Shown here: piece after piece, positions 25,146-39,327 of the stretch
Layout of the letters: every line of letters starts with the position of its first letter
Position numbering within the stretch: the first letter of the stretch is position 1
Source of the DNA: Cyanobacteria bacterium QS_4_48_99
GTDB taxonomy: Bacteria; Cyanobacteriota; Cyanobacteriia; Cyanobacteriales; Rubidibacteraceae
NCBI GenBank assembly: GCA_003021505.1
Contig: PXPT01000006.1
Coordinates: forward strand, 1-54,999
Length of the DNA stretch: 54,999 nucleotides
Direction of reading: 5' to 3'
Translations under genes and position numbers: made by a program
Notes under the pieces: model-generated
Database searches by the model: none
Seen by the model: only the letters and a program-made list of their open reading frames with translations
What the model was told of the DNA's origin: nothing

Positions 25146-25187
25146 CACAAAAACGGTAAGACTGAATCTTCACTCAGCCTACCGTTC
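25146..25187 (-). terminator. Terminator of the metallophore-type operon
   Basis: AACGGTA (25152-25158) pairs with TACCGTT (25180-25186), with an inner CTGA/TCAG pairing. Read on the minus strand, the hairpin is followed by TTTTTGTG. It directly abuts the stop codon of the Apd1-type gene, and it also sits between that gene and desC, which converge. Confidence 0.75.
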
Positions 25188-26178
25188 ATTCCACTTGGAC
25201 AAGGTGACTGACGCGATACTGCTTCGCGGCTTGCAAAGACATTTCATCTCCCGACTTAGGTGCCGTCGTTACCTCACCGCTGACTTCCACCCTAGCTTCA
25301 TACGCACCGGATTTGCTGCCATCGGGGGTAGTAAAGTCAATGCGTACTTCTGCCCACGTTTCCTCCTGTTCATCTATCCCCAGCACCTGCCCAGCTTTGT
25401 AGTAGTCAATCCAGTCCCAACCCTGTTGCATCCAAATTTCGCGCTCGGCAATTTGCTCCCATTTGGTTAGACCAGTCCAACCGCGATAAAACTGACGCAA
25501 ACCTAAAACTGAGCCATTCCGCTGCACTAAGAGATCCAGCATCTCTGGCTCTAAATGCCCCCAGTAGCGCCCTTCGGGAAAATCAACTAGGGTGGGCGCA
25601 AACCGATGACCCCCAAAGTGACTGACGCGCCATACCCGAAGCTGTCCTTGGGAGTTAGCGGCGTATTGCGATCGCAACTTTTTATAAATGGGATAGCCAA
25701 ACCTACCACAAGCGGCATCGTGATTAGCATGCGTGCAAACCATTAACTCTCGGATGTGGCTTGTCTGTTGCTGATATTGCTCAAAATATTGCAATTGCTC
25801 GGGTTGCTTCAGAAGTGCTTTTGCTAAGGGATAAATCTGCTCTTCTGGCAGAAGGAATTCCTGTTTCTGGAACTTCGCAAAGAGTCTGGCGGGGCGTTGA
25901 TAGTAAAGTACGCGCGTCGCATGGGGATAGGAATATTCCCGGTCAGGAGCAATTAGCAACGGTCTAACTTTGATGCCATGCTCTTGGCGCAGTGCTGTCA
26001 GCATCTCGATAACTGGTTGCAGGGTAGAATGCTGCCCAATTTGGGGCGACCAAGGTTGAGCCATTTCCACCAGCAGCCAGTGGTCAAATGTTCCCACTGA
26101 GGCAATGGGGTCTTCTCCATTGGTTTTGGAAACCACTGAGCAAAAGCGACAATCAGTGAGGGCATAATTATTAGACAT
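25186..26178 (-). CDS. Apd1/sucrase-ferredoxin-like [2Fe-2S] protein
   Basis: A 330-aa Suc/Fer-like (thioredoxin-fold ferredoxin) protein. It carries the ligand pattern known from yeast Apd1: C148-x8-C157 (CTHANHDAAC) followed by H187-xxx-H191 (HFGGH). An extra CxxC lies at 10-13. Cys2His2 [2Fe-2S] proteins of this family are redox proteins of uncertain physiological role. As the last gene of a siderophore-type operon, 34 bp after the exporter, it may reduce ferric chelates in the cytoplasm or help load or redox-tune the product. This role is inference from position. Confidence 0.88.
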   Translation of the reverse strand: MSNNYALTDCRFCSVVSKTNGEDPIASVGTFDHWLLVEMAQPWSPQIGQHSTLQPVIEMLTALRQEHGIKVRPLLIAPDREYSYPHATRVLYYQRPARLFAKFQKQEFLLPEEQIYPLAKALLKQPEQLQYFEQYQQQTSHIRELMVCTHANHDAACGRFGYPIYKKLRSQYAANSQGQLRVWRVSHFGGHRFAPTLVDFPEGRYWGHLEPEMLDLLVQRNGSVLGLRQFYRGWTGLTKWEQIAEREIWMQQGWDWIDYYKAGQVLGIDEQEETWAEVRIDFTTPDGSKSGAYEARVEVSGEVTTAPKSGDEMSLQAAKQYRVSHLVQVE

Positions 26179-26211: not shown

Positions 26212-27510
26212 TCATGCAGTCGTGGCACCGCCACTGGGCACACTGTCCTCTACCTCCCGTAAGCTGGGGAAGGCATATCCACCTAGACCAATTAGCACTA
26301 GGCAAATGGAACTCATTACATACAGAAATGCCATTCCTGCCCCTGGGTTAGTGCCAAAGATGCTGCCGAGTAGGGGGGCAAGAGTGCCTCCTGGCATCAT
26401 GGCTGGTTCCACAACGTAGTCTGCGAGTGGCGCGGCAATTAATTTTGCGATTGGCGAAAGGGCAAGCGCGAACATCCGGCGGGAGGCAAATACACGCCCT
26501 TGCAGGTTGGGTTCTACTTTCAAGCGCCAGATGGCATCGCTGCAACTACTTTTTAAGGGAAAGTTTAGCGAGGAGCAGAATTGGGCAGGGAGCCAGATTA
26601 ATGGCGTTCGAGCCAGACCGAAGATAGTTTTGCTGATGCCAGCCCCCACCATGCCCAGTAGAAAACCCTGAATCCGGCGCTTGGGACCCCCCCAGGTAGT
26701 TACAATCACTGCCCCGACAACCCCGCCAATTCCTGCTGCTGAAGAGATGGTTCCTAACACTCTGGCATCATTCCCGGTGCGCGCCAGAATCATCGGTCGG
26801 AATAAGGCACCGCCAAAATCATGGGCAAAAACGAATAATGACTCTGCGATCAGCAAAGCCCACAAACCCGGGCTAGCGAAAATGTAGCGGAAACCGAATT
26901 GAAGTTCTTGCCAGATATTTTTGGGATCTTGGCTTGTCTGTTCCGGGAGAGGAGGTTGCGGGATATGGACGAACAGCACCGTGCTAATGGCGATCGCAAA
27001 AGTGGCAATATCAATCAGTAAAATCCCCAACAGTCCGATGACATAATAGAGTGCCCCTGCCAACGCGGGAGCAATAATAATCGAGCCGTAATGGAGAACA
27101 GAACCCATGCTGCTAGCACGGGTATATTGCTGCCTGGGAACCATTAGGGTAATGGAGGCGGAGTAGGCTAAACCTTGGAGTTGGTTAAAAGCCCCGTTAA
27201 TGATGCCAATTGCGTATAAGTGCCAGATTTGCAAATTGCCGCTGACATAAAGCAAGAGGATGGCAACGGTAGACAGAACAGTAATCGTATCGCCCACAAT
27301 CAACAGCAGCTTGCGGTTCCAACGGTCTACGATTATCCCAGCAAAAGGAAGAATCAAGAGACGCGGTATTTGAGTAGAGACACTTACTAAAGCTAATGTG
27401 GTCGCCTCACCCGTAATTTCCCATGCCCAGATACCAAGGGCAAAGCCAGTCATTTTGCTGCCAAAGGTGGATACGAGTTGACCAAGCCAAACGATGATAA
27501 AGGTACGCAC
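26212..27510 (-). CDS. MFS exporter, EntS-like
   Basis: A 432-aa, twelve-helix major facilitator of the EntS/MFS_3 type. It starts MRTFIIVWLGQLVSTFGSKM, and the first-loop motif FAGIIVDRWNRKLLL is well preserved. EntS family members export siderophores such as enterobactin; others export drugs. It lies 24 bp after the siderophore-binding lipoprotein gene and 34 bp before the Apd1-type gene, so one transcript is likely. In this locus it is the best candidate for releasing the peptide product across the inner membrane. Confidence 0.9.
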   Translation of the reverse strand: MRTFIIVWLGQLVSTFGSKMTGFALGIWAWEITGEATTLALVSVSTQIPRLLILPFAGIIVDRWNRKLLLIVGDTITVLSTVAILLLYVSGNLQIWHLYAIGIINGAFNQLQGLAYSASITLMVPRQQYTRASSMGSVLHYGSIIIAPALAGALYYVIGLLGILLIDIATFAIAISTVLFVHIPQPPLPEQTSQDPKNIWQELQFGFRYIFASPGLWALLIAESLFVFAHDFGGALFRPMILARTGNDARVLGTISSAAGIGGVVGAVIVTTWGGPKRRIQGFLLGMVGAGISKTIFGLARTPLIWLPAQFCSSLNFPLKSSCSDAIWRLKVEPNLQGRVFASRRMFALALSPIAKLIAAPLADYVVEPAMMPGGTLAPLLGSIFGTNPGAGMAFLYVMSSICLVLIGLGGYAFPSLREVEDSVPSGGATTA

Positions 27511-27533: not shown

Positions 27534-28535
27534 TCAATTGGACTCCAGTAGAAGCTCGCGAATCTGGTCAATCATCAGCTTGGCAGCAATTGGTCCGTAA
27601 GTCCGGCTCCAAAGTTGATAATCGACGAAGTAGACTTGTTGGGTTTGACTGGCTGGAAGTTTACGTAAGAGGGAGTTTTCTTCCCACTTTTTTCTCACCT
27701 GCGCTACACTACTATTCCCACTCGCCATGACAAAGATAATATCAGCATCCTCCGCAAGCTGGGGCAGGGCTTCGAGCGAGATTAATTCTGCTTGCTTGTC
27801 AGTAGGAGTTACGAGTGGGAACCCTAAATCCTCAAGCAAGCCACCGGCGTAACTTTCACCACTGTCTACGCCGAAGCCACTCATGGAGGGATTGTAGTCC
27901 AGTAGTAAAACCTTTTTTTGTGAAGCCACAGGAGCGAGATCAGCGCGAGCCTCAGCAACTCGTTGCTCGTGCGCCTTAATTACTTGCTGTGCCTTCTCTT
28001 CGCGCCCTAGGGCTTGAGCAATTTTTTTAAGGCTGCTCTTCCACTCTTCGTCCTCTGAACCCGTAAACAGCAAGGTAGGTGCAATCCTAGAGAGATTGGC
28101 AAATTTTTGCGAACTGGTTCCCTCCCCCAAAATTAGGTCGGGGTTCAACTTAACCAAAACTTCTAGGGAAGGCTCGTTACGGGTGCCGACGTTGATGGGG
28201 TTGCTGTTGACATACTTGCCCAGATATTTGATTTGTTGGAGTTTTTCACCAAAGTTATTAGAACCGATATAGCGCGTTTCTGCATAACCCGCAGGTTGCA
28301 CGCCCAGAGAGAGTAGAATACCTAGCATATAGGGTCCTAGGGCGACAATTTCGGTGGGATGACCACAAATTTTAGTTTGACCCGCTTCGTGTTTAATCGC
28401 CTGACATTCAGCTTCCGAGGACTGCAAATTATTGGTCGCATTGGGAGCAGAATTACTGCCACAACTTGTCGCCAGAGCAATAGTAAGCGTTACTGGCAAA
28501 AACAACTTAGTGAAACGATCAATTTTCTGCACCAT
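27534..28535 (-). CDS. Iron-siderophore substrate-binding lipoprotein
   Basis: A 333-aa FecB/FhuD-type periplasmic binding protein. A lipoprotein signal ends at LATSCG (Cys about 25). The binding-protein fold follows (EIVALGPYMLGILLSLGVQP, LEVLVKLNPDLILGEG). It would receive a ferric chelate from the outer-membrane receptor and pass it to an inner-membrane ABC permease. No FecCD permease or FecE ATPase gene is in this window. The ATG overlaps the stop of a decayed acetyltransferase frame (TAATG at 28537-28533), a relic of translational coupling. Confidence 0.93.
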   Translation of the reverse strand: MVQKIDRFTKLFLPVTLTIALATSCGSNSAPNATNNLQSSEAECQAIKHEAGQTKICGHPTEIVALGPYMLGILLSLGVQPAGYAETRYIGSNNFGEKLQQIKYLGKYVNSNPINVGTRNEPSLEVLVKLNPDLILGEGTSSQKFANLSRIAPTLLFTGSEDEEWKSSLKKIAQALGREEKAQQVIKAHEQRVAEARADLAPVASQKKVLLLDYNPSMSGFGVDSGESYAGGLLEDLGFPLVTPTDKQAELISLEALPQLAEDADIIFVMASGNSSVAQVRKKWEENSLLRKLPASQTQQVYFVDYQLWSRTYGPIAAKLMIDQIRELLLESN

Positions 28536-28742: not shown

Positions 28743-31307
28743 TCAGAAAGTATAAAAGGCATTGACCGTAATCGTGCGCGGTGCTCCAGGAAAAACAATA
28801 TCTTCGCCATACCCACCTGGGAAATACACCTCATCAAAAACATTTTTGACATTCACTGCCACTTCTAAGTCGTCGACAGTGTAGAACAATGCCAGGTCTG
28901 CTTTAACGTAACTGGGTAGGTTCACATTCTCGTCGGCAGAGATATCGGTTTCTCTCTCAGCGACGTAATTTAAACCACCGCCAACGCCGAAATTGCTGTT
29001 CGGGAAATCATACCGAGTCCAGAGACCTGCGGAATTCTTGGGCGCATTGGGCAGCAACTCACCCACATTATCTGGGTTGGTATCTTCTGTTACTCGCGCA
29101 TCGTTATAGGCGTAGTTGGCGATAACTCTCCAGTTCTCAGTAATTAAGCCCGTGATGCTCAACTCAATTCCCTTACTTTCCGTTTCGCCCAGTTGTATCG
29201 ACCTGTCTGGGTCTTCTGGGTCAGCAACGAGAATGTTTTGCTTGGTAATCCGGTAGAAAGCCAGGGTGGTGCTGAGTCGATCTTCCAGCCAGAAAGCCTT
29301 TACCCCTGCCTCAATCTGCTCACTTGTTGTGGGGTCAAAGGGACCTCCTTGTTCTGGAGTCTGATCCGAAGTATCTTGTGGGGAAAAACCTTCACTGTAG
29401 CTGCTATAGAAGGAAAGATTATCTGAGGGTTGATAGACGATTCCACCTCGCAGGGTTAGGTCGCTATCGGACTGCTCTTGTTCGCTCTCTACATCTCCTG
29501 AGGTCGTTAGCTCTGTGAATTCTTGGTCGAAGCTATCGTAGCGAATGCCCACCAGTCCCTTCCATTGGGGACTGAACTCGATTTGATCCTGAGCGTACAC
29601 ACCGTATACGAACTGCTCCGATTCAAACAGGAATTCCGAGTCGAAAACGTAATCTTCTGGCACGTCTGCCTGTCCATAGATGGGGTCAAAGATATCGAGT
29701 GGAGGAACCGTGCCATCTTCAGAGATGGGACTGGCAAACCTGTTGGGAGACCCCTCAGATGTGGTTCGCGTTGCATCTGCCCCTAGAAGAATCTTGTGAG
29801 CAACGGGACCAGTTTCAAGGTTTCCAATCAGATTGACATTGAATGTGTAGCTGCTGTCACTTAAAACCTGGTTGCGATACTGGCGCTTGATGGTGCGACC
29901 GTCATCCAGGAATCCCCTTGGTTCGTGATAGTTGTTAGTGTAATCGCTCTGGGCATACCTTGCTGCTGCCTCCAACTTCAAATCTTCACTAAACTCGTGT
30001 TCTAGGTCTAGTTGCAGCGCAGAGCCTTCACTTTTTGCGATGTCGCCCGGCTCATTAGTGGTAAAATCAATCGGGACAGCGGATACATCACCGCCAGGGG
30101 CAGCAATACCGCGATCGCGTTGACCCTCTCGATCCTCATCGTAAAATATTGCTGTAAAGTCAAGTGTGGTTGCATCGCCTATCCGCCAGGTGAGAGAGGG
30201 ATAAATCGACTTATATTTTAACTCCTGAAAATTTCGGAAACTATTGGAATCTTCGTAGGCAAGGATAAGGCGATAGAGGAGAGTTTCACTCTCATTTAAC
30301 GGTCCAGTGGAATCAAGCTGGAGTTCTAGCTGATCGAAAACACCGGGGGCGAGTTCCTGACTACCAGGAGCAACTTTCACTTCAGTGAAGGGGTCTTCCT
30401 GGGGTTTCTTGGTGACAATGTTAACCAGTCCACCTGGCTCAAGCTGTCCGTAAAGAACTGAAGCGGGACCTTTCAGGACGTCCACCTGCTCCACATTGTT
30501 CAATTTCAGAGGAGCAAATTTATCGAAGGGATTACCTCTTAGACCGTTATAAATAATGCTGTCCTCTTGCAATCTAAAGCCTCTGAGAGCAAAATCCTGA
30601 TAATTGGGAGAGGAGAACTGGTTCAATCCACTAACATTGCGAGTAATATCATCCAAGGTATCGGCATCCTGGTCTTCAATCACCTCTTCTGGCACTACCT
30701 CAATGGACTGAGGAATATCTAGCATCGGAGTCTCTGTCCTCGTTCCAGTTGTCGCCTCATCAACCAAATATCCTTCTTCTCCCACCGCAGGCACAACTAA
30801 CTCAATCGCTTCCTCACCCGCTGCGCTTGGTGCTGTCGGAGCAGGGGGTTCCGCTTGTGGTGTTTCTGGTGTTGGGGGCGCTGGCAGAGTCTCAGCCGCA
30901 GCAGAAGGAGACCTTACACTGAGTGCTAGTCCTTGTGCGCTTTCGATAACTTCTGCACTCGGCACTGCCTCTGTACCCGTCACGGTCACGCGGACACTGT
31001 TAGGATTTTGCTGTACTACCGTGACCTGAGCTACTCCAGAGGCGGGATTATTCTCACGGAAGCCTTTGTCCTCTGGTAAACGTAACTGGGTATTAGGGAT
31101 GTCTATCGCCAAGGTTCTGCCAAACCTAGTTTTAAAAACTTGAGGCTGCTCTTCACTGGGTGTTTCCAAAATCACTTCCAACCCACTGTCAGTGGGATCA
31201 AGCCGCACGCCAGTAACTTGCCTCGCTTGGGCAAAAGCAGGCTGAGTAGACACTAAAATGCAAGTATTTGCAACTAAAAAAACGCTGGTTACTCCTAAAT
31301 TTTTCAC
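28743..31307 (-). CDS. TonB-dependent siderophore receptor with AMIN domain
   Basis: An outer-membrane receptor of about 854 aa from the GTG at 31307, preceded by AGGAG and giving a normal signal peptide ending QPAFAQA. A longer frame from ATG 31385 would overlap the oxygenase gene. Order: AMIN domain (about residues 27-135 of the mature region), a Pro/Ala-rich linker, plug domain (TPMLDIPQSIEVVPEEVIED, GPASVLYGQLEPGGLVNIVT) and a 22-strand barrel ending NAFYTF. AMIN-plug-barrel receptors of cyanobacteria import ferric siderophores. It starts 47 bp after the oxygenase stop, in the same operon. Confidence 0.95.
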   Translation of the reverse strand: MKNLGVTSVFLVANTCILVSTQPAFAQARQVTGVRLDPTDSGLEVILETPSEEQPQVFKTRFGRTLAIDIPNTQLRLPEDKGFRENNPASGVAQVTVVQQNPNSVRVTVTGTEAVPSAEVIESAQGLALSVRSPSAAAETLPAPPTPETPQAEPPAPTAPSAAGEEAIELVVPAVGEEGYLVDEATTGTRTETPMLDIPQSIEVVPEEVIEDQDADTLDDITRNVSGLNQFSSPNYQDFALRGFRLQEDSIIYNGLRGNPFDKFAPLKLNNVEQVDVLKGPASVLYGQLEPGGLVNIVTKKPQEDPFTEVKVAPGSQELAPGVFDQLELQLDSTGPLNESETLLYRLILAYEDSNSFRNFQELKYKSIYPSLTWRIGDATTLDFTAIFYDEDREGQRDRGIAAPGGDVSAVPIDFTTNEPGDIAKSEGSALQLDLEHEFSEDLKLEAAARYAQSDYTNNYHEPRGFLDDGRTIKRQYRNQVLSDSSYTFNVNLIGNLETGPVAHKILLGADATRTTSEGSPNRFASPISEDGTVPPLDIFDPIYGQADVPEDYVFDSEFLFESEQFVYGVYAQDQIEFSPQWKGLVGIRYDSFDQEFTELTTSGDVESEQEQSDSDLTLRGGIVYQPSDNLSFYSSYSEGFSPQDTSDQTPEQGGPFDPTTSEQIEAGVKAFWLEDRLSTTLAFYRITKQNILVADPEDPDRSIQLGETESKGIELSITGLITENWRVIANYAYNDARVTEDTNPDNVGELLPNAPKNSAGLWTRYDFPNSNFGVGGGLNYVAERETDISADENVNLPSYVKADLALFYTVDDLEVAVNVKNVFDEVYFPGGYGEDIVFPGAPRTITVNAFYTF

Positions 31308-31353: not shown

Positions 31354-32550
31354 TTAGCTAGCAATCGCTTGCTTACTGGGATCACTCTCTAAAAAGATAA
31401 TTCCCTCAGTTAGCAGGTAGGATAATAGAGGGACTATTTCTTTTTCCCAGTCGAAACCTGGTAGCCATTTGGAAACGTCGTATCCAGTAAAGAATTCTTG
31501 ACTGAAAAAGTTCTCTATAAAATCAGTTGTTACACCTTGTAAATTGACTTCTTTACCACCGACTATTATTTGATAAGAGGAGTCTCCTGTTTTAAAAATG
31601 TATGTTCTTTGAAATTTGGGGATTTTAAATGTTTGACCAATTTCTAATGAAGATGCATAAAATCCTGCTTGGTAAGGCAAAGAGTATCCGGCAATAGGAG
31701 TCTCCAAGCTGGCTAGATGTTTGGTATAATCAATATCTATTCTCTCTTGATTAGCAAGATAACTGCTTAGATTTTGGAGTAAACTATGTACGTATCCTTT
31801 GAGAGTTTCGGATTCAGGACTGGTAATTAATGGTGGCATATTTTTTCGCCATTCTTCGTGTTGCTTCAATTCATCAACAAGCCATTCTAAAAAGTCAACT
31901 CCTGTTTTTACGTGTATTCCTACAGTTAGATGTAATGATGGTTGATCTAGGGCTACTGCATAGTGCCAATGACCGCGCGGAATATACAGTACGTCACCCG
32001 GCTTTTGAACACACTTTAAGTAAGGCTCTTCTTCAGGAGGCGAAAAGAATGAAGACTTGTCATCAGGTGAAGGATACTTTCGAGTATCTGGAAATATATG
32101 CCACTCTTTGGTTCCATCTACCTGGAGAATGAAAACTTCGTGCCCGTCGAAGTGGCATGGAAATCCCTTGGTTCCTGGCCAAGAGCAATACGCATTCGTT
32201 TGTACTCGATGACCTAAGCCCAAGTCATACCTCAGTGCCGAAACTAAGTCCGCAATTTCTGGAATTAGCTTGCTTACCCGATCTATAATCAGAGTAGCAC
32301 CTTTTTCCTTACATTGTTTGACTGGATTATGGCATTCGCTTTCTCCTAAGACTTTTCCATCAACAGCTAGGCGTAGATCGGGATATTGGAATTCGTGATG
32401 ATTCAACAAATGGGTTAACTTTTCCCAAGAAAACAACTGATTAAAGTTCTTGCTCTCTGTATTCGGAATATGGATGCCTTGTTCAGTCCAGTAAGTCTGA
32501 AAAAAATGTTCAATTCCATAGGGAGATAAGATTTTTTTTAAAGTTTCCAT
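31354..32550 (-). CDS. JmjC/cupin-type 2-oxoglutarate oxygenase (ROXA-like fold)
   Basis: A 398-aa protein. Its JmjC double-stranded beta-helix (about residues 85-225) shows the Fe(II) triad H133-x-D135 (CHFDGH) and H196 (PRGHWHYA), with the GDVLYIPRGH and SLHLTVGIH blocks of the PF08007-type (ROXA/MINA) family. A C-terminal region ending VPLLSYLLTEGIIFLES resembles the winged helix of these enzymes. Known relatives hydroxylate ribosomal proteins. Here the gene starts 117 bp downstream of a 59-aa peptide gene, has its own AAGGA site, and leads a siderophore-uptake operon. Peptide hydroxylation, for example on Asp, is my inference. Confidence 0.88.
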   Translation of the reverse strand: METLKKILSPYGIEHFFQTYWTEQGIHIPNTESKNFNQLFSWEKLTHLLNHHEFQYPDLRLAVDGKVLGESECHNPVKQCKEKGATLIIDRVSKLIPEIADLVSALRYDLGLGHRVQTNAYCSWPGTKGFPCHFDGHEVFILQVDGTKEWHIFPDTRKYPSPDDKSSFFSPPEEEPYLKCVQKPGDVLYIPRGHWHYAVALDQPSLHLTVGIHVKTGVDFLEWLVDELKQHEEWRKNMPPLITSPESETLKGYVHSLLQNLSSYLANQERIDIDYTKHLASLETPIAGYSLPYQAGFYASSLEIGQTFKIPKFQRTYIFKTGDSSYQIIVGGKEVNLQGVTTDFIENFFSQEFFTGYDVSKWLPGFDWEKEIVPLLSYLLTEGIIFLESDPSKQAIAS

Positions 32551-32604
32551 TTTTGTTCCTTATTAATCTTGATAAAATCAGTTTTTATTTCACACACAGA
32601 TACC

Positions 32605-32630
32605 CATCCCCCCGTCGAGAGGGGACGGAT
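32605..32630 (-). promoter_or_regulatory. Hairpin between peptide gene and oxygenase
   Basis: On the minus strand ATCC-GTCCC and GGGGGGAT (32630 to 32605) fold into an imperfect GC-rich stem around a CTCTCGAC loop. There is no T-run directly after it. It lies between the short peptide gene and the long enzyme gene, where RiPP operons often have a partial terminator or RNA-stabilising stem that keeps peptide mRNA in excess. Confidence 0.5.
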
Positions 32631-32666
32631 ATAGATGCAGCGCTGCTACTAGATGTTAGCTATTTT

Positions 32667-32846
32667 TTAGCCGTCGCCGCCATCTCCACCTTCTTGGGCA
32701 AGACCAAGTGCAGAGCTAGACTTTGATGGAGTATAGACGCTGGTTTGCGGACCAACTTCTTTTACTTCAACTGCAATCCGACCTGCACTTTTTTCATGCA
32801 AGTTGTCCGTTTTGCGTTGCTCTGCCACTTTTGGCTGTACTGACAT
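32667..32846 (-). CDS. 59-aa candidate precursor peptide (RiPP-type)
   Basis: A 60-codon ATG-to-TAA frame, start at 32846, preceded by a perfect AGGAGG eight bases upstream. It begins MSVQPKVAEQRKTDNLHEKS, then a segment rich in Val and Glu (GRIAVEVKEVGPQ), a Ser/Thr stretch (TSVYTPSKSSSALGLAQ), and it ends with the acidic, flexible EGGDGGDG. There is no Cys, signal peptide or membrane helix. The layout is a charged leader plus a repeat-like C-terminal core (GGD-GGD), as in ribosomal peptide precursors. The next gene is a JmjC oxygenase. I propose Asp or Glu in the tail as modification sites. I know of no named family. The gene itself is well supported by its ribosome site; the role is inferred. 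Confidence 0.75.
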   Translation of the reverse strand: MSVQPKVAEQRKTDNLHEKSAGRIAVEVKEVGPQTSVYTPSKSSSALGLAQEGGDGGDG

Positions 32847-33180
32847 GTTTTCAACCTCCTAAGTTTCATGGTTGACAACACCCTTGAGAGGTGCTGTCTC
32901 TTGGTTAGAAGCTTCTATTTTTGATGATATGCAATTTCAACAAAAGCCTGTTGTCGCAAACGGATTTTTTTTTGTCTGATCGGGATCTTTTTGACGATGA
33001 CGATATAGACCCCTAGCAAAATCCGCTTCCATACTCTTCACTAAAATTTTTCTGCATAGGCATTTCTGGGGTAAAAACATTACCTAATCACCCCCCTCAG
33101 GTTGGAGATGATGGTCACTCTAAATGCAGTAAATAACTATGTGGCAGGTAAATGATTTGGTCAAGGTATTCATTCTCAAA
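32847..33180 (-). promoter_or_regulatory. Promoter region of the peptide-oxygenase-receptor operon
   Basis: No gene is seen here. The minus strand carries AAATCCGTTTGCGACAACAG (32967 to 32948), and the plus strand carries AAATCCGC (33018-33025), so similar words face each other about 50 bp apart. ATTTCCGC words are arranged as an inverted pair upstream of the AraC-type regulator gene (35118-35125 and 35164-35171). These are candidate sites for that regulator. I see no convincing Fur box. Confidence 0.4.
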
Positions 33181-33495
33181 TCAAAATTCGGCAAGGAAAA
33201 TTAGTTCATCAACATTTTCACCAAAGCTCAATTTAGGATTGAGAATAAAAATTCCTGGCACGTGATGACCTTCGGCGATGTGGTTAGCTAAGTGAACGGG
33301 CATGGATATGCGATTATTTGTCACCAACACCAACCCATACTCCTCGCACCATTTCAGAATTTCTGGATCTAAAGTGCCGAATGAGGGAGCGCCTGGTTCG
33401 CCAACCACCCAATTGACTAGTTCAAAATTGCATCGAGTGAGTGGAGTTTTGTAGCCGGGATCTACGTTTTCATCCAGCAGATATTTGAGAGTCAT
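33181..33495 (-). CDS. DUF5615 PIN-like toxin
   Basis: A 104-aa PIN-fold (Mut7-C/DUF5615) protein. It starts MTLKYLLDENVDPGYKTPL with the first acidic residues of the site (LLDENV), has EYGLVLVTNNRISMP in the middle, and a HHVPGIFIL strand. Members are predicted RNases that act as the toxin of a pair with a DUF433 protein. The DUF433 gene lies directly upstream and overlaps the start, but it is broken. The toxin reading frame itself is intact. Confidence 0.85.
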   Translation of the reverse strand: MTLKYLLDENVDPGYKTPLTRCNFELVNWVVGEPGAPSFGTLDPEILKWCEEYGLVLVTNNRISMPVHLANHIAEGHHVPGIFILNPKLSFGENVDELIFLAEF

Positions 33496-34060: not shown

Positions 34061-35074
34061 CTAATGCAAGCTCGTTCTATAAGACTTAGGCGTGATCCCA
34101 AATTGTCGCTTGAACGCATGACAGAAGCGACTCTGGCTAGCATAGCCGACAGCACGCGCCACGCTAGCAACACTCAGCCCTTGCTCTGCCAATAGTTGTT
34201 TAGCCATCTCCATGCGGTGAGCCAGCAAACACCCGAATACAGTCGTCCCAAAAACCTCACGAAAGCCTCGCTTCAGCTTGTAATCATTGAGTCCTACCTG
34301 CTGCGCCAACTCTTGCAACGAGGGGGGAAACTCTAGGTTTTGGATTAAAATCTCTTTAGCATGATGCAGCCGTTCCATGTCATCGGCTTGAACAATGCTT
34401 GATTTTGCGGACTTTTTGTCATTATCCACCCATTGAGTTAATTGTAAGGCGAGCAGTTCCAAGGTTTTGCTTTCAAGGTACATCCGTTTTGTCATCCCTT
34501 GGTAGGGGCAGCTCAGGATTTGCTGCAAGGCAACCTGCATGGCGTGGGTTGTCACTCCCAAAGGCTGGTGGAAACGCTGCACGGAGTTATTTTCAATTAG
34601 CTGCTGTAATTGATTCGGTAAAGATTCAAAGCTTGTACTAAAAGCCCTGAAAATGTCAAGTTGTATGCTGATTCTGACTAGATGTAACCGCTGTTTGGGC
34701 TGCCACTGCTCAATTTCTTCGATATCTGGGAGAAAAAACAGATAGTTTTGACCACCACCTTCCTCATAATCGCCTTTCACACCTTGAACGCCGGGAGTAA
34801 GTACCCTGTGACTTCCGGAAAGATAAAATTTGGAAATTAGTGGCTTGGACGCAGAGTGCAGAGACTCTATGCTGAATGGCTTGTAGTAATGATTATCGAT
34901 AATTTCCAGATGGAGTCCGGGGCGTAGCTCCACCATCTGACAAAAATTGTTACTAAATCGGTGCTGGTACTTCTGGATTAAATCGAATCCGTTACAATTA
35001 CGGACAACCTCTCCCCTTTCGATACTTTCTTGCCGCAGTTCGCGCCACTCTGCGCGTGTCAGAGTTTTCGTCAT
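34061..35074 (-). CDS. AraC family regulator, PchR-like
   Basis: A 337-aa regulator. An N-terminal ligand-binding region (about 1-230) is followed by a C-terminal AraC double helix-turn-helix (LQELAQQVGLNDYKLKRGFR and SVASVARAVGYASQSRFCHA, ending FKRQFGITPKSYR). The overall shape and SLQELAQQVGLNDYKLKRGF match PchR-type regulators that sense siderophores and switch on TonB receptor genes in cyanobacteria. It sits upstream of the peptide-oxygenase-receptor operon, separated only by the toxin-antitoxin pair. An inverted ATTTCCGC pair lies upstream of its start. Confidence 0.92.
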   Translation of the reverse strand: MTKTLTRAEWRELRQESIERGEVVRNCNGFDLIQKYQHRFSNNFCQMVELRPGLHLEIIDNHYYKPFSIESLHSASKPLISKFYLSGSHRVLTPGVQGVKGDYEEGGGQNYLFFLPDIEEIEQWQPKQRLHLVRISIQLDIFRAFSTSFESLPNQLQQLIENNSVQRFHQPLGVTTHAMQVALQQILSCPYQGMTKRMYLESKTLELLALQLTQWVDNDKKSAKSSIVQADDMERLHHAKEILIQNLEFPPSLQELAQQVGLNDYKLKRGFREVFGTTVFGCLLAHRMEMAKQLLAEQGLSVASVARAVGYASQSRFCHAFKRQFGITPKSYRTSLH

Positions 35075-35446: not shown

Positions 35447-36963
35447 ATGTCTGGAGTGAACTCGAAGTATTTATACGACTTTCCTTCCCTACCGTTGATC
35501 AATTGGGAAAGACTAGCTTACGAGTACGCCACCCCAGCACGGCAAACTAGAGTTGCAGAACCGGGAGGATCTTACCAGTCCCCACCCTCAGGAACCCCCA
35601 GAATTCCGCCCTCGATTCAACTGCGGCAGTATCAGCGCCAAGCCGTTTCAAGCTGGTTTTCCAACCAAGGGCGGGGCACCCTGAAAATGGCAACCGGAAG
35701 TGGCAAAACAATCGTGGCATTAGTGATCGCCACCGAACTCTATCAAAAAATCGGCTTGCAAGTCATACTGGTAGTTTGCCCTTACCGTCACCTTGTCACT
35801 CAATGGGCGCGAGAATGTGAGAAATTCCACCTTAAACCCCTCCTCGCCTTTGAAAGCGTTCGCACCTGGCAACGTCAACTGTCCACCCAACTCTATAACC
35901 TTCACTCCGGTAGCCAGCCTTTTCTCACTCTCATCACGACTAACGCCACCTTGATGGCATCGGGGTTGCAATCCCAACTGAAGTTTTTCCCCGATAAAAC
36001 CCTCATTGTGGGAGACGAGGCACATAATCTCGGTTCGCGTCGCTTAGAAGAAAGTCTCCCCCGCAACATCGGATTACGTCTTGCCCTTTCTGCTACTCCC
36101 CAACGCTACTTTGACAACGAGGGAACCGAAGCAATCTTTAATTATTTCGGCGCGGTATTACAGCCAGAATTCACCCTCGCAGACGCAATTCGCCAAGGGG
36201 CATTAGTGCATTACCTTTACTATCCCATCTTGGTAGAACTCACCGAATCGGAAACCCTTGCTTACGCCAAACTCACTAAGCGGATTGGCTGGGCACTTAA
36301 CGATAATGACGATTGGGCGAGCAATGATACTTTAACATCACTATTAATGCAGCGATCGCGCTTAACAGGTGCAGCCGCGAACAAGCTAGAAGCACTGCAT
36401 CAACTTATGTCTGGGCGCTTGTATACTAGCCACACCCTCTTCTACTGCGGCGATGGTGATGTCGAGACAGATATTTCCCACTACAATCGCCAACTGGCAG
36501 CCGTTACCCACCTTTTAGGAACCCAACTAGGCTATCGCGTCAACACCTATACTGCCGAAACTTCCCTCGAACAGAGAGAAGAAATACGCAGACAATTTGA
36601 AAGCGGCGAGTTGCAAGGATTAGCCGCCATTCGTTGTTTAGATGCATTCGTTGTTTAGATGAAGGTGTGGATATCCCAGCGATTCAAAACGCCGTAATTT
36701 TAGCCAGCACAGGCAACCCCCGCCAGTTTATTCAACGCCGAGGACGAATTTTGCGCCCTCATCCCGGCAAGGAACGCGCCACCCTATTTGACATGATTGT
36801 CATGCCACCCAATTTAGAACGCGAAACTTGGGAAGTAGAACGCAATCTGCTACGCAAAGAATTGAAACGCTTTATCGAGTTTGCCGACTTAGCGGATAAT
36901 GCAGCAGAAGCGAGAACTCAATTATTTGCACTCCAAGAAAAATATCAACTGCTAGATTTATGA
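35447..36963 (+). pseudogene. Dnd-linked-type DEAD/DEAH helicase, split by a 17-bp duplication
   Basis: A superfamily 2 helicase. Motifs: YQRQAVSSWF, Walker A ATGSGKT, GDEAHNLG (DEAH), LALSATPQR, and in the second part the C-terminal helicase IRCLDEGVDIPAIQ and FIQRRGRILRPHPGK. It resembles helicases that accompany phosphorothioation (dnd) genes. A perfect tandem copy of CATTCGTTGTTTAGATG (36628-36644 and 36645-36661) shifts the frame and stops translation at 36656-36658. Removing one copy restores a continuous 499-aa protein (IRCLDEGVD). The last 100 residues can otherwise be made only from an internal start near 36634. Confidence 0.88.
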
Positions 36964-37093
36964 ATAAGAAGGCAAGAGGCAAAGGGCAAAAGGGCTAACG
37001 TTTACTTTAGCCTTTAGTTTCTTATTGTTTACTTAAGCCTTTAATATGAGTGCCTTCTTTACAATCCTAGTTATTTTAATCTCCTTTTATGTG

Positions 37094-37267
37094 ATGACAA
37101 ACGAACCCAACTTTAACAACGCACAAGAACCCATCACGGAAGCCTCTCCCGAAGTTCACCAAATCCTTGAGCGAACTTTGCAAGTTGAAAAAGATAAAAT
37201 TCATCTAAAAACGCCTCGTAATATTAACGAAGATATCCTCAAAATTATTAAAGAAGTTATTCAATGA
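37094..37267 (+). CDS. Small protein between helicase and DndD-like gene
   Basis: A 57-aa protein from ATG 37094 (MTNEPNFNNAQEPITEASPE); an ATG at 37046 would add 16 hydrophobic residues. The C-terminal part (VHQILERTLQVEKDKIHLKT, PRNINEDILKIIKEVIQ) is helical. Its stop overlaps the next gene's ATG (ATGA at 37264-37267), which indicates translational coupling. It may be an accessory subunit of the DndD-like ATPase. I do not know a named family. Confidence 0.7.
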   Translation: MTNEPNFNNAQEPITEASPEVHQILERTLQVEKDKIHLKTPRNINEDILKIIKEVIQ

Positions 37268-39327
37268 AGCTAATTTCGTTCAGACTTTGCAACTTTCGTC
37301 AGTTCCATGGCAAAACTCCAGAAATTATCCTTGCCCGTAACGAAGGCAATACCACTATCATTCACGGTAATAACGGTGCAGGAAAAACCACCCTACTGAA
37401 TGCCTTCACTTGGGTACTCTACGAAAAATTTACCGCTGCATTTGCCTCCAGCGAACAACTGGTAAACAAACGAGCAATTACAGAGGCAGTTCCGGGAAAA
37501 TCAGTAGAATGCTGGGTGGAAATTACTTTCGAGCATGATTACAAACGTTACCAGTTGAAGCGCCAATGCTATGCCCGCAGAGGAGAAACAATTGATTATA
37601 CTCCCACTCAAATCTTCATGCTGGTGGCAGGAGACGATGGGCGTTGGATGCCGCCGATGCAACAGCCAGAAGATATAATTGGACAGATTTTACCGGAAAC
37701 TTTACATCAGTATTTTTTCTTTGATGGAGAACGTATCGATCACATTATTCGCTATGAAAAGAAGACAGAAATTGCTGAAGCAACCAAGGAACTTTTAGGA
37801 ATTAAAGTTTTAGAGCGCTCTGTGGAACATTTAAAGAAAGCAAAGCGGACGCTGGAAGAGGAACTAAAGGCAATTGGCGATACAGAAACTCAGCAATTAT
37901 TACAAGCGCAATATCAACTGGAACAAGAGCGCGATCGCCTACATCAGCGTCAACAGGAAATTCTCCAAGAAATTGCACGCCAAGAAGAATTTAAGAAGAC
38001 AATTAGTGATCATTTACTCGAACTTAATAGTGCCGAAAAGGTACAGCAATTTAAAAACCAACTAGAAGCGCAAGAAAAATCGACTCAACAAAACCTAGTC
38101 CAAGCCAAGAAAGCCTTAAAACAGGCAATCTCTACCCGTGGCTATACCGTTTTCTTATCAGATATAACTGCCCAATTCCATACTCTTGTGGACGATTTAC
38201 GGGAGAAAGGCGAGTTACCTGCGGGAATTAAACAGCAGTTTGTTAATGAATTGTTAGAGCGGAAACGTTGTATCTGCGGCACGGAATTAACAGAAGAAAG
38301 CCATGCTCATCAGATGGTGGAGGCTTGGAAAGAAAGAGCGGGAATTGCAGAGGTAGAGGAAGCAGCAATTCGCATGGAAACTCAAGTAGGAGAACTGGAA
38401 AAACAAGCACCGGAATTTTGGCAAGAAGTTGACAGTCAGCAAGCCCAGATCAATCACTTGCGAACTGAACTAGGGCGAATCGAAAATGAACTAGATGAAG
38501 TTAAAAATAAGCTGAGAGCTTACCCAGATGAAGATATTCAGAAGTTACAAAAGCAACTGGATGCCGCAGAAGAGACTATCCGAGAATCAAGTTTAGAGCA
38601 AGGCAGAAACCAACAAGAAATTGAGCGCCTTACTGCTGAATTTGAGGAAAAAGGCAAGCAAATTGCCAAGCATCAAATGAAAGAAGAAAAACAACTCCTA
38701 GCTCGGCGGCGCATTCAAGCCACTCAAGAATCGATAGAGCGGTTTATAGAAGTAAAAGCACGCATAGAGCAGCAGTTCCGCGCTTCTTTGGAAAAACGAG
38801 TACAGGAAATATTTGCCTCGATTTCCTTTACCCCCTATCTACCCAAGCTCAGTGAAAAGTATGAGCTAACCCTAGTAGAAAATACTGCTGAAAAAGAAGC
38901 ATCTGTTGCTGCATCAACTGGGGAAAATCAGATTCTTAGCCTCTCATTCATCGGCGGCATTATTGATCGAGTTCGGGAGTGGAGTCAGCGAAATACTCTC
39001 ATGGGACCTGATAGTAGCACATTCCCAGTAGTGATGGATTCTCCGTTTGGAAGTTTGGATGAAATCTATCGGCGGCAAGTCGCAAGTTCGATTCCGAAGC
39101 TAGCGAATCAGTTAGTTGTTTTGGCGACAAAAACTCAATGGCGAGGCGAAGTTGCCCAAGAAATGGCAGACTATCTTGGCAGAGAGTACGTTTTGGTTTA
39201 TTACTCTCCCAAGCCAGATTGTGAAGAAGATGCGATTGAAATCAATGGGATTCGCTATCCGTTAGTGCAGCGCAGTGCTAACGAGTTTGAATACACCGAA
39301 ATTATCGAGGTAAAGCGTGATGGCTAG
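37264..39327 (+). CDS. DndD-like SMC/RecN-type ATPase
   Basis: A 687-aa ATPase. N-terminal Walker A HGNNGAGKTT (about 34-43) and Q-loop region are followed by long coiled-coil arms (about 190-500), interrupted near residue 335 by a KRCICGTEL segment resembling a zinc hook. The C-terminal head has the signature-like NQILSLSFIGGI and Walker B FPVVMDSPFGSLDE (about 590). This matches DndD, an ATPase of DNA phosphorothioation, and its relatives in other defence cassettes. No dndA, B, C or E is in the window, so it may belong to a separate helicase-small protein-ATPase system. The reading frame is intact. Confidence 0.9.
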   Translation: MKLISFRLCNFRQFHGKTPEIILARNEGNTTIIHGNNGAGKTTLLNAFTWVLYEKFTAAFASSEQLVNKRAITEAVPGKSVECWVEITFEHDYKRYQLKRQCYARRGETIDYTPTQIFMLVAGDDGRWMPPMQQPEDIIGQILPETLHQYFFFDGERIDHIIRYEKKTEIAEATKELLGIKVLERSVEHLKKAKRTLEEELKAIGDTETQQLLQAQYQLEQERDRLHQRQQEILQEIARQEEFKKTISDHLLELNSAEKVQQFKNQLEAQEKSTQQNLVQAKKALKQAISTRGYTVFLSDITAQFHTLVDDLREKGELPAGIKQQFVNELLERKRCICGTELTEESHAHQMVEAWKERAGIAEVEEAAIRMETQVGELEKQAPEFWQEVDSQQAQINHLRTELGRIENELDEVKNKLRAYPDEDIQKLQKQLDAAEETIRESSLEQGRNQQEIERLTAEFEEKGKQIAKHQMKEEKQLLARRRIQATQESIERFIEVKARIEQQFRASLEKRVQEIFASISFTPYLPKLSEKYELTLVENTAEKEASVAASTGENQILSLSFIGGIIDRVREWSQRNTLMGPDSSTFPVVMDSPFGSLDEIYRRQVASSIPKLANQLVVLATKTQWRGEVAQEMADYLGREYVLVYYSPKPDCEEDAIEINGIRYPLVQRSANEFEYTEIIEVKRDG

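Follow-up and report, generated by a model that had tools for sequence, protein, structure and literature searches.

The ribosomal oxygenases NO66, MINA53 and YcfD combine a JmjC domain, carrying an HxD...H triad, with a C-terminal winged helix and act on His or Arg of ribosomal proteins; to our knowledge, none of them is paired with a short peptide gene. BipG, another JmjC protein, is the ornithine hydroxylase in the biosynthesis of biphenomycin, a ribosomally synthesized and post-translationally modified peptide (RiPP) (PMC12707348). Fusions of RiPP recognition element (RRE) folds to PF08007 JmjC domains have been reported as well, with bacterial homologues in RiPP-like contexts; the fused RREs are from fish and algae, and the part of that report used here describes no precursor, core or function for them (PMC12710340). 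Here we describe a 59-codon gene of Cyanobacteria bacterium QS_4_48_99 which, judged by its sequence, is a genuine precursor gene and which, together with the adjacent JmjC gene, apparently represents an undescribed JmjC/RRE RiPP family, called JmjC-RRE peptides below. The DNA analysed (the window; 54,999 nt) is an entire contig of this 3.6-Mb cyanobacterial genome, whose family also includes a Halothece metagenome-assembled genome.

The JmjC protein of the window shares the domain layout and the triad with NO66, MINA53 and YcfD, at about 20% identity. It resembles BipG in being a JmjC Fe(II)/2-oxoglutarate enzyme, and the hydroxylation of a ribosomal peptide precursor, which BipG performs, is its putative role. 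However, BipG targets ornithine in a multi-enzyme cluster, whereas the enzyme here stands alone with its own RRE-like domain and is accompanied by Asp-rich cores. With the fused proteins it has in common a predicted RRE-like fold on the same Pfam domain, and with their bacterial homologues a RiPP-like context.

The 59-codon open reading frame (ORF) translates to MSVQPKVAEQRKTDNLHEKSAGRIAVEVKEVGPQTSVYTPSKSSSALGLAQEGGDGGDG. A sequence-only reading of this DNA had given its size and position and an AGGAGG eight bases before the ATG, all of which proved correct, and the translation confirmed the reported lack of Cys and the Gly/Asp tail after Gln-Glu (QEGGDGGDG), the last seven residues being exclusively Gly and Asp. 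When the window was searched with a profile of 31 precursors from other genomes, with the window peptide left out, this peptide ranked first among 1,664 ORFs (E=5.6e-5). In a profile search of nine whole genomes of its family, using an alignment (A5) that contains the window peptide, it was matched at E=9.5e-13, and the precursor and an intact JmjC gene either co-occurred or were both missing in all nine genomes.

ORFs of 40-66 aa precede the same JmjC gene in about 30 cyanobacterial genera, as exemplified by LNTDADGSDLNTDADGSDLSS in Brasilonema and NFDADGGDRNFDADGGDRNFDADGGDRHH in Okeania. The family leader strand is (S)KIQVEVKEI, and Ile I24 of the window leader is invariant in A5. Among close JmjC relatives, the C-terminal core DxDG[GS]D occurs in one, two or three copies, with multi-core precursors repeating NFDADGGDR or LNTDADGSD two or three times, and most relatives carry about 3, 6 or 9 Asp per precursor, usually three per core unit. 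The suggestion that the leader and the core Asp might be conserved therefore held for the leader and for the family cores, but the window core departs from them with two Asp and a Glu. The profile made without the window peptide, run over 31,884 short ORFs from 100 loci (some of which come from a genome already represented), matched 55 JmjC-upstream ORFs at E<=1e-6, a sensitivity that is partly by construction because the training set overlaps many of the matched loci. This does not apply to the absence of matches elsewhere: the sole such match was a second precursor at one locus (L032, in genome G372). Synonymous differences (pS) exceeded nonsynonymous ones (pN) in Okeania precursors (pS 0.09-0.28 vs pN 0.01-0.02) and in the pooled Microcoleus group (0.31 vs 0.07), and repeats within precursors were conserved at the protein level while the copies differed silently. 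Thus the homologous loci neither lack the ORF nor show random changes in it. NCBIfam and Pfam contain no model for this precursor, and the open-access papers that we searched gave no description of a JmjC/Asp RiPP, of a RiPP siderophore or of a link between Suc/Fer-like proteins and siderophores.

The iron triad of the neighbouring enzyme (H133, D135 and H196) is invariant in 56 JmjC sequences. An AlphaFold (AF2) model of the protein (pLDDT 92.8) displayed the jelly-roll architecture of ribosomal oxygenases, with MINA53 and NO66 as the best PDB matches. Scanned on their own against Pfam, the C-terminal domains matched no RRE family, and we therefore relied on fold comparison for this part. Apart from ribosomal-oxygenase C-termini, most PDB matches were RiPP enzymes or RREs, namely McbB, TigE, ThcOx, LynD-type heterocyclases, the PbtF RRE, TbiB1, PqqD, MccB and NisB. 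The Z scores of about 5 to 7.4 (about 6 to 7.4 for the RREs) are no proof by themselves, yet we consider the type of matches telling, and it agrees with the fusions reported in PMC12710340. On the other side, the C-terminal domains of NO66, MINA53 and YcfD match the RRE-like domain equally well or better, and therefore the fold alone is no proof of leader binding. That the ORF encodes a leader and core tied to the JmjC enzyme, as had been proposed from the sequence, gained support from the conserved leader motif, the repeated Asp cores, the exclusive location ahead of JmjC genes, the purifying selection and the RRE-like domain taken together. We regard the 59-aa peptide as very probably the precursor substrate of the neighbouring JmjC protein.

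Within the phylum, 24 of 386 genomes yielded relatives of this JmjC protein; relatives were also recovered in 80 named loci of Scytonema, Brasilonema, Moorena, Symploca, Microcoleus, Tychonema, Okeania, Trichodesmium, Nostoc, Halothece and others, plus two Streptomyces. A single-sequence scan of genome contigs gave no relatives, which a profile scan did recover. One more distant member lies in a YcaO/ThcOx/Nif11 cluster (L033), and another relative (L040) adjoins genes for PqqD and asparagine synthase, which is also the case in lasso clusters. In L083, L084 and L123 the main JmjC copy has additional partial or tandem copies next to it.

In 54 of the 100 loci the JmjC gene is followed, in the same orientation, by a gene for a Suc/Fer-like protein, the usual third gene. 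All 52 Suc/Fer-like sequences longer than 300 aa contain CX8C...HX3H, the motif of a bis-His [2Fe-2S] cluster, and a sequence search found no solved structure matching the Suc/Fer-like protein. The motif is shared with Apd1 and Aim32, bis-histidinyl [2Fe-2S] proteins of uncertain role (PMC8482512, PMC11126956), which differ in being from yeast and in having no RiPP link. Such a partner would fit either as a source of electrons for the oxygenase or as the reductase of a ferric product. It is the combination of the precursor family, the JmjC iron triad, the RRE-like fold and this third gene that leads us to propose an apparently undescribed RiPP family. The features of the locus are collected in Table 1.

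Table 1. Features of the precursor gene and its operon, with positions counted from the first letter of the window.
Feature	Position	Strand	Basis
Precursor peptide gene, 59 aa	32667..32846	minus	ORF; profile match; purifying selection in relatives
Ribosome binding site AGGAGG, 8 nt ahead of ATG	32855..32860	minus	sequence
Leader motif RIAVEVKEV, putative strand bound by RRE-like domain	32754..32780	minus	alignment with relatives
Putative core GGDGGDG, preceded by QE	32670..32690	minus	alignment with DxDG[GS]D cores
14-bp hairpin between precursor and JmjC gene, no U tract	32600..32632	minus	RNA fold -33.2 kcal/mol over 126-nt stretch, z=-2.9
JmjC (PF08007) 2-oxoglutarate oxygenase, putative peptide hydroxylase	31354..32550	minus	JmjC_2 E=1.2e-25
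C-terminal RRE-like domain of JmjC protein	31381..31638	minus	PDB matches McbB, TigE, PbtF RRE, TbiB1, PqqD
TonB-dependent siderophore receptor with AMIN domain	28743..31307	minus	TIGR01783 E=2.4e-118, over cut-off; PF11741
FecB-type Fe(3+)-siderophore binding protein	27534..28535	minus	PF01497 E=1.5e-30; Fe-dicitrate substrate-binding protein model below cut-off
EntS-like major facilitator superfamily (MFS) transporter, putative exporter	26212..27510	minus	TIGR00900 E=2.2e-52, EntS 3.1e-18, both below cut-off; MFS_1
Suc/Fer-like thioredoxin-like [2Fe-2S] protein, putative electron donor or ferric-complex reductase	25186..26178	minus	PF06999 E=1.4e-33; CX8C...HX3H
Terminator-like hairpin past last operon gene	25159..25180	minus	consensus scan; such sites in the region number near the shuffled mean

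In the window the six genes follow each other on one strand in the order precursor, JmjC, TonB receptor, FecB-type protein, EntS-like MFS transporter and Suc/Fer-like protein. The gaps are 116 nt between precursor and JmjC gene, about 46 nt up to the receptor, for which a GTG with an AGGAG site is the likely start, and then 207, 23 and 33 nt. An AraC-type regulator gene lies upstream of the operon (34061-35074), and the hairpin behind the precursor gene is a possible attenuator or mRNA stabiliser. The sequence-only reading had stated that no protease or PCAT exporter is near, and none was present among the neighbours scanned; it had, however, overlooked the EntS-like MFS transporter and the iron-transport genes of the same operon.

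Building on the gene, family, pairing, predicted folds and operon layout established here, we propose that the neighbouring JmjC protein would bind the leader strand IxVEVKE through its C-terminal RRE-like domain, and that its Fe(II)/2-oxoglutarate domain would then hydroxylate Asp in the GGDGGDG core at the C-terminus of the peptide, with the beta carbon as the likeliest position. The [2Fe-2S] Suc/Fer-like protein may give electrons to the oxygenase or to a metal product, and the product is possibly a metal ligand that would be handled by the EntS-like transporter, the TonB receptor and the FecB-type protein. As a whole, this explanation appears to us somewhat more probable than not. FIH and the ribosomal oxygenases, to which the JmjC protein is related, hydroxylate beta carbons. 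As Asp or Asn is common to the core types of both branches of the family (class I and class II) and the window core is made of Gly and Asp only, beta-hydroxylation of core Asp is the simplest reading and the likeliest chemistry, and we think it probable. Beta-hydroxylation of Asp in a RiPP has a precedent in the graspetide-linked hydroxylase SmaO, as cited in PMC13097080, which belongs to a different cluster.

Several observations weigh against this account. The window core has one Asp fewer than the usual unit of its relatives, the operon revealed no protease gene (a protease could act in trans), and we know of no modified product. The closest solved relatives, NO66, MINA53 and YcfD, hydroxylate His or Arg, and together with BipG, which acts on ornithine, they speak for the possibility that the enzyme modifies a precursor residue other than core Asp or performs another reaction; we hold this to be unlikely, because Asp or Asn is present in all core types seen, and past Glu52 the window core carries no side chain other than Asp. 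It might also be supposed that the ORF is untranslated and that the conserved signal belongs to a regulatory RNA or to a leader of the JmjC gene, with which the strong hairpin in the precursor-JmjC gap would agree. The excess of synonymous over replacement changes in relatives, which is several-fold, the consensus ribosome binding site and the protein-level repeats with silent differences make this very improbable, and an untranslated or chance ORF was dismissed on the selection and family profile evidence.

Whether hydroxylated JmjC-RRE peptides would serve iron uptake is a separate question. In the window, the genes for receptor, binding protein and transporter, spaced by short gaps, separate the JmjC gene from the Suc/Fer-like gene. 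In genome G372, one precursor lies on either side of the TonB and FecB genes, and all of these precede the JmjC gene; an MFS gene of 52% identity is nearby, and this 99% complete genome has no NRPS (nonribosomal peptide synthetase) condensation domain and no IucA/IucC. Genome G386 harbours a decayed JmjC copy that lacks its N-terminal part (L132:9434-10228) and has no precursor, lying among TonB, FecB, MFS, polyketide synthase (PKS) and AraC genes; its AraC-type regulator is 40% identical to that of the window, and NRPS condensation domains occur on the same contig. Because the JmjC tree places the window and the Halothece/G372 pair on different branches with good support (97/93), the iron link probably arose twice, that is, it appears recurrent rather than inherited once. 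Siderophores with beta-hydroxy-Asp as an iron ligand, such as the cyanochelins, are established in cyanobacteria (PMC12628792); the same ligand is proposed here by analogy, but those siderophores are made by NRPS/PKS enzymes and not from a ribosomal precursor. Three Asp per unit could in principle suffice for six-coordinate Fe(III), an idea that fits most relatives and was not used as evidence for the window, since its core has two Asp.

The alternative, to which we give about an even chance, is that the same RiPP family yields a non-siderophore product, such as a metal-binding, calcium-binding or signalling peptide that acts inside the cell or is secreted, and that the iron-uptake genes came into the operon by chance as an independent cassette. 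The unmodified DxDGxD pattern resembles calcium-binding loops, which counts in its favour. In about fifty class I loci, the precursor, JmjC and Suc/Fer-like genes are accompanied by no TonB, FecB or MFS gene, and most other family loci have no siderophore transport genes near the cassette. The MFS transporter is common without the JmjC gene (54 of 373 genomes), with relatives up to 64% identical in genomes that yielded no copy of this JmjC; NRPS and IucA/IucC genes occur elsewhere in the window genome; and the best site of a Fur-box scan upstream of the operon (13/19) was at chance level for the window. Against a chance insertion stand the position of the window iron genes inside the cassette, the recurrence of the iron link in two JmjC lineages whose layouts differ, one of them with two precursors next to receptor genes, and its presence in a genome that lacks the domains of classical siderophore synthesis. 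Weighing these, we consider a role of this operon in iron handling possible, although short of an even chance, and a ribosomal beta-hydroxy-Asp metallophore plausible but less likely than not. The full pathway of a ribosomally encoded siderophore, in which DxDG[GS]D cores would be beta-hydroxylated by the JmjC/RRE enzyme, exported by the EntS-like transporter and recovered through TonB/FecB, with iron release by the Suc/Fer-like reductase or by light, is rather doubtful.

Other observations concern the surroundings of the family. A GNAT acetyltransferase gene is convergent to the cassette in 43 of the 100 loci (for example L031:9412-9870 and L032:12277-12717) and may encode a product modifier or be a chance neighbour; it was dropped as a fourth cassette part because the window genome has no close copy. 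In five Trichodesmium and Okeania loci (L031, L073, L077, L080 and L099), TRAP transporter genes (DctM confirmed; DctQ-like) precede the precursor gene in the same orientation. In the class II branch, the JmjC gene is paired with precursors of 95-150 aa that have signal-peptide-like starts, a VEVVNLK-type motif and long Asn/Ser or Asp/Gln/Asn repeats (L034, L035, L106, L107, L111, L114, L116 and L120), and in 13 class II-type loci a convergent gene of about 279 aa comes next, whose L034 copy matches a nucleotidyltransferase weakly and below threshold. Far outside the cyanobacteria, the two Streptomyces loci (L122:8001-9161 and L124:8001-9173) have a JmjC gene and a short upstream ORF ending in NLEVDQKDV. 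Elsewhere in the window's genome there is a broken second MFS copy, 65-76% identical (G000:C70:3882-5067). Upstream of the operon, the window contains a DUF5615-like ORF (33181-33495; PF18480 below cut-off), possibly a toxin-antitoxin remnant, and helicase-like ORFs with a 687-aa SMC/DndD-like ATPase ORF (35447-39327), possibly DNA modification or defence genes.

The minimal RiPP system that these results define from sequence consists of one precursor and one JmjC enzyme that carries its own RRE-like domain, and it occurs in about 30 cyanobacterial genera, among them Trichodesmium and Moorena. They also provide a candidate substrate for the bacterial JmjC/RRE branch, which work from 2025 noted only as RiPP-like. 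In the organism studied here the precursor heads an iron-uptake operon, and expression of two genes would put the ribosomal-siderophore hypothesis to the test. Should the product bind iron, siderophore synthesis would extend beyond NRPS and NRPS-independent siderophore (NIS) chemistry.
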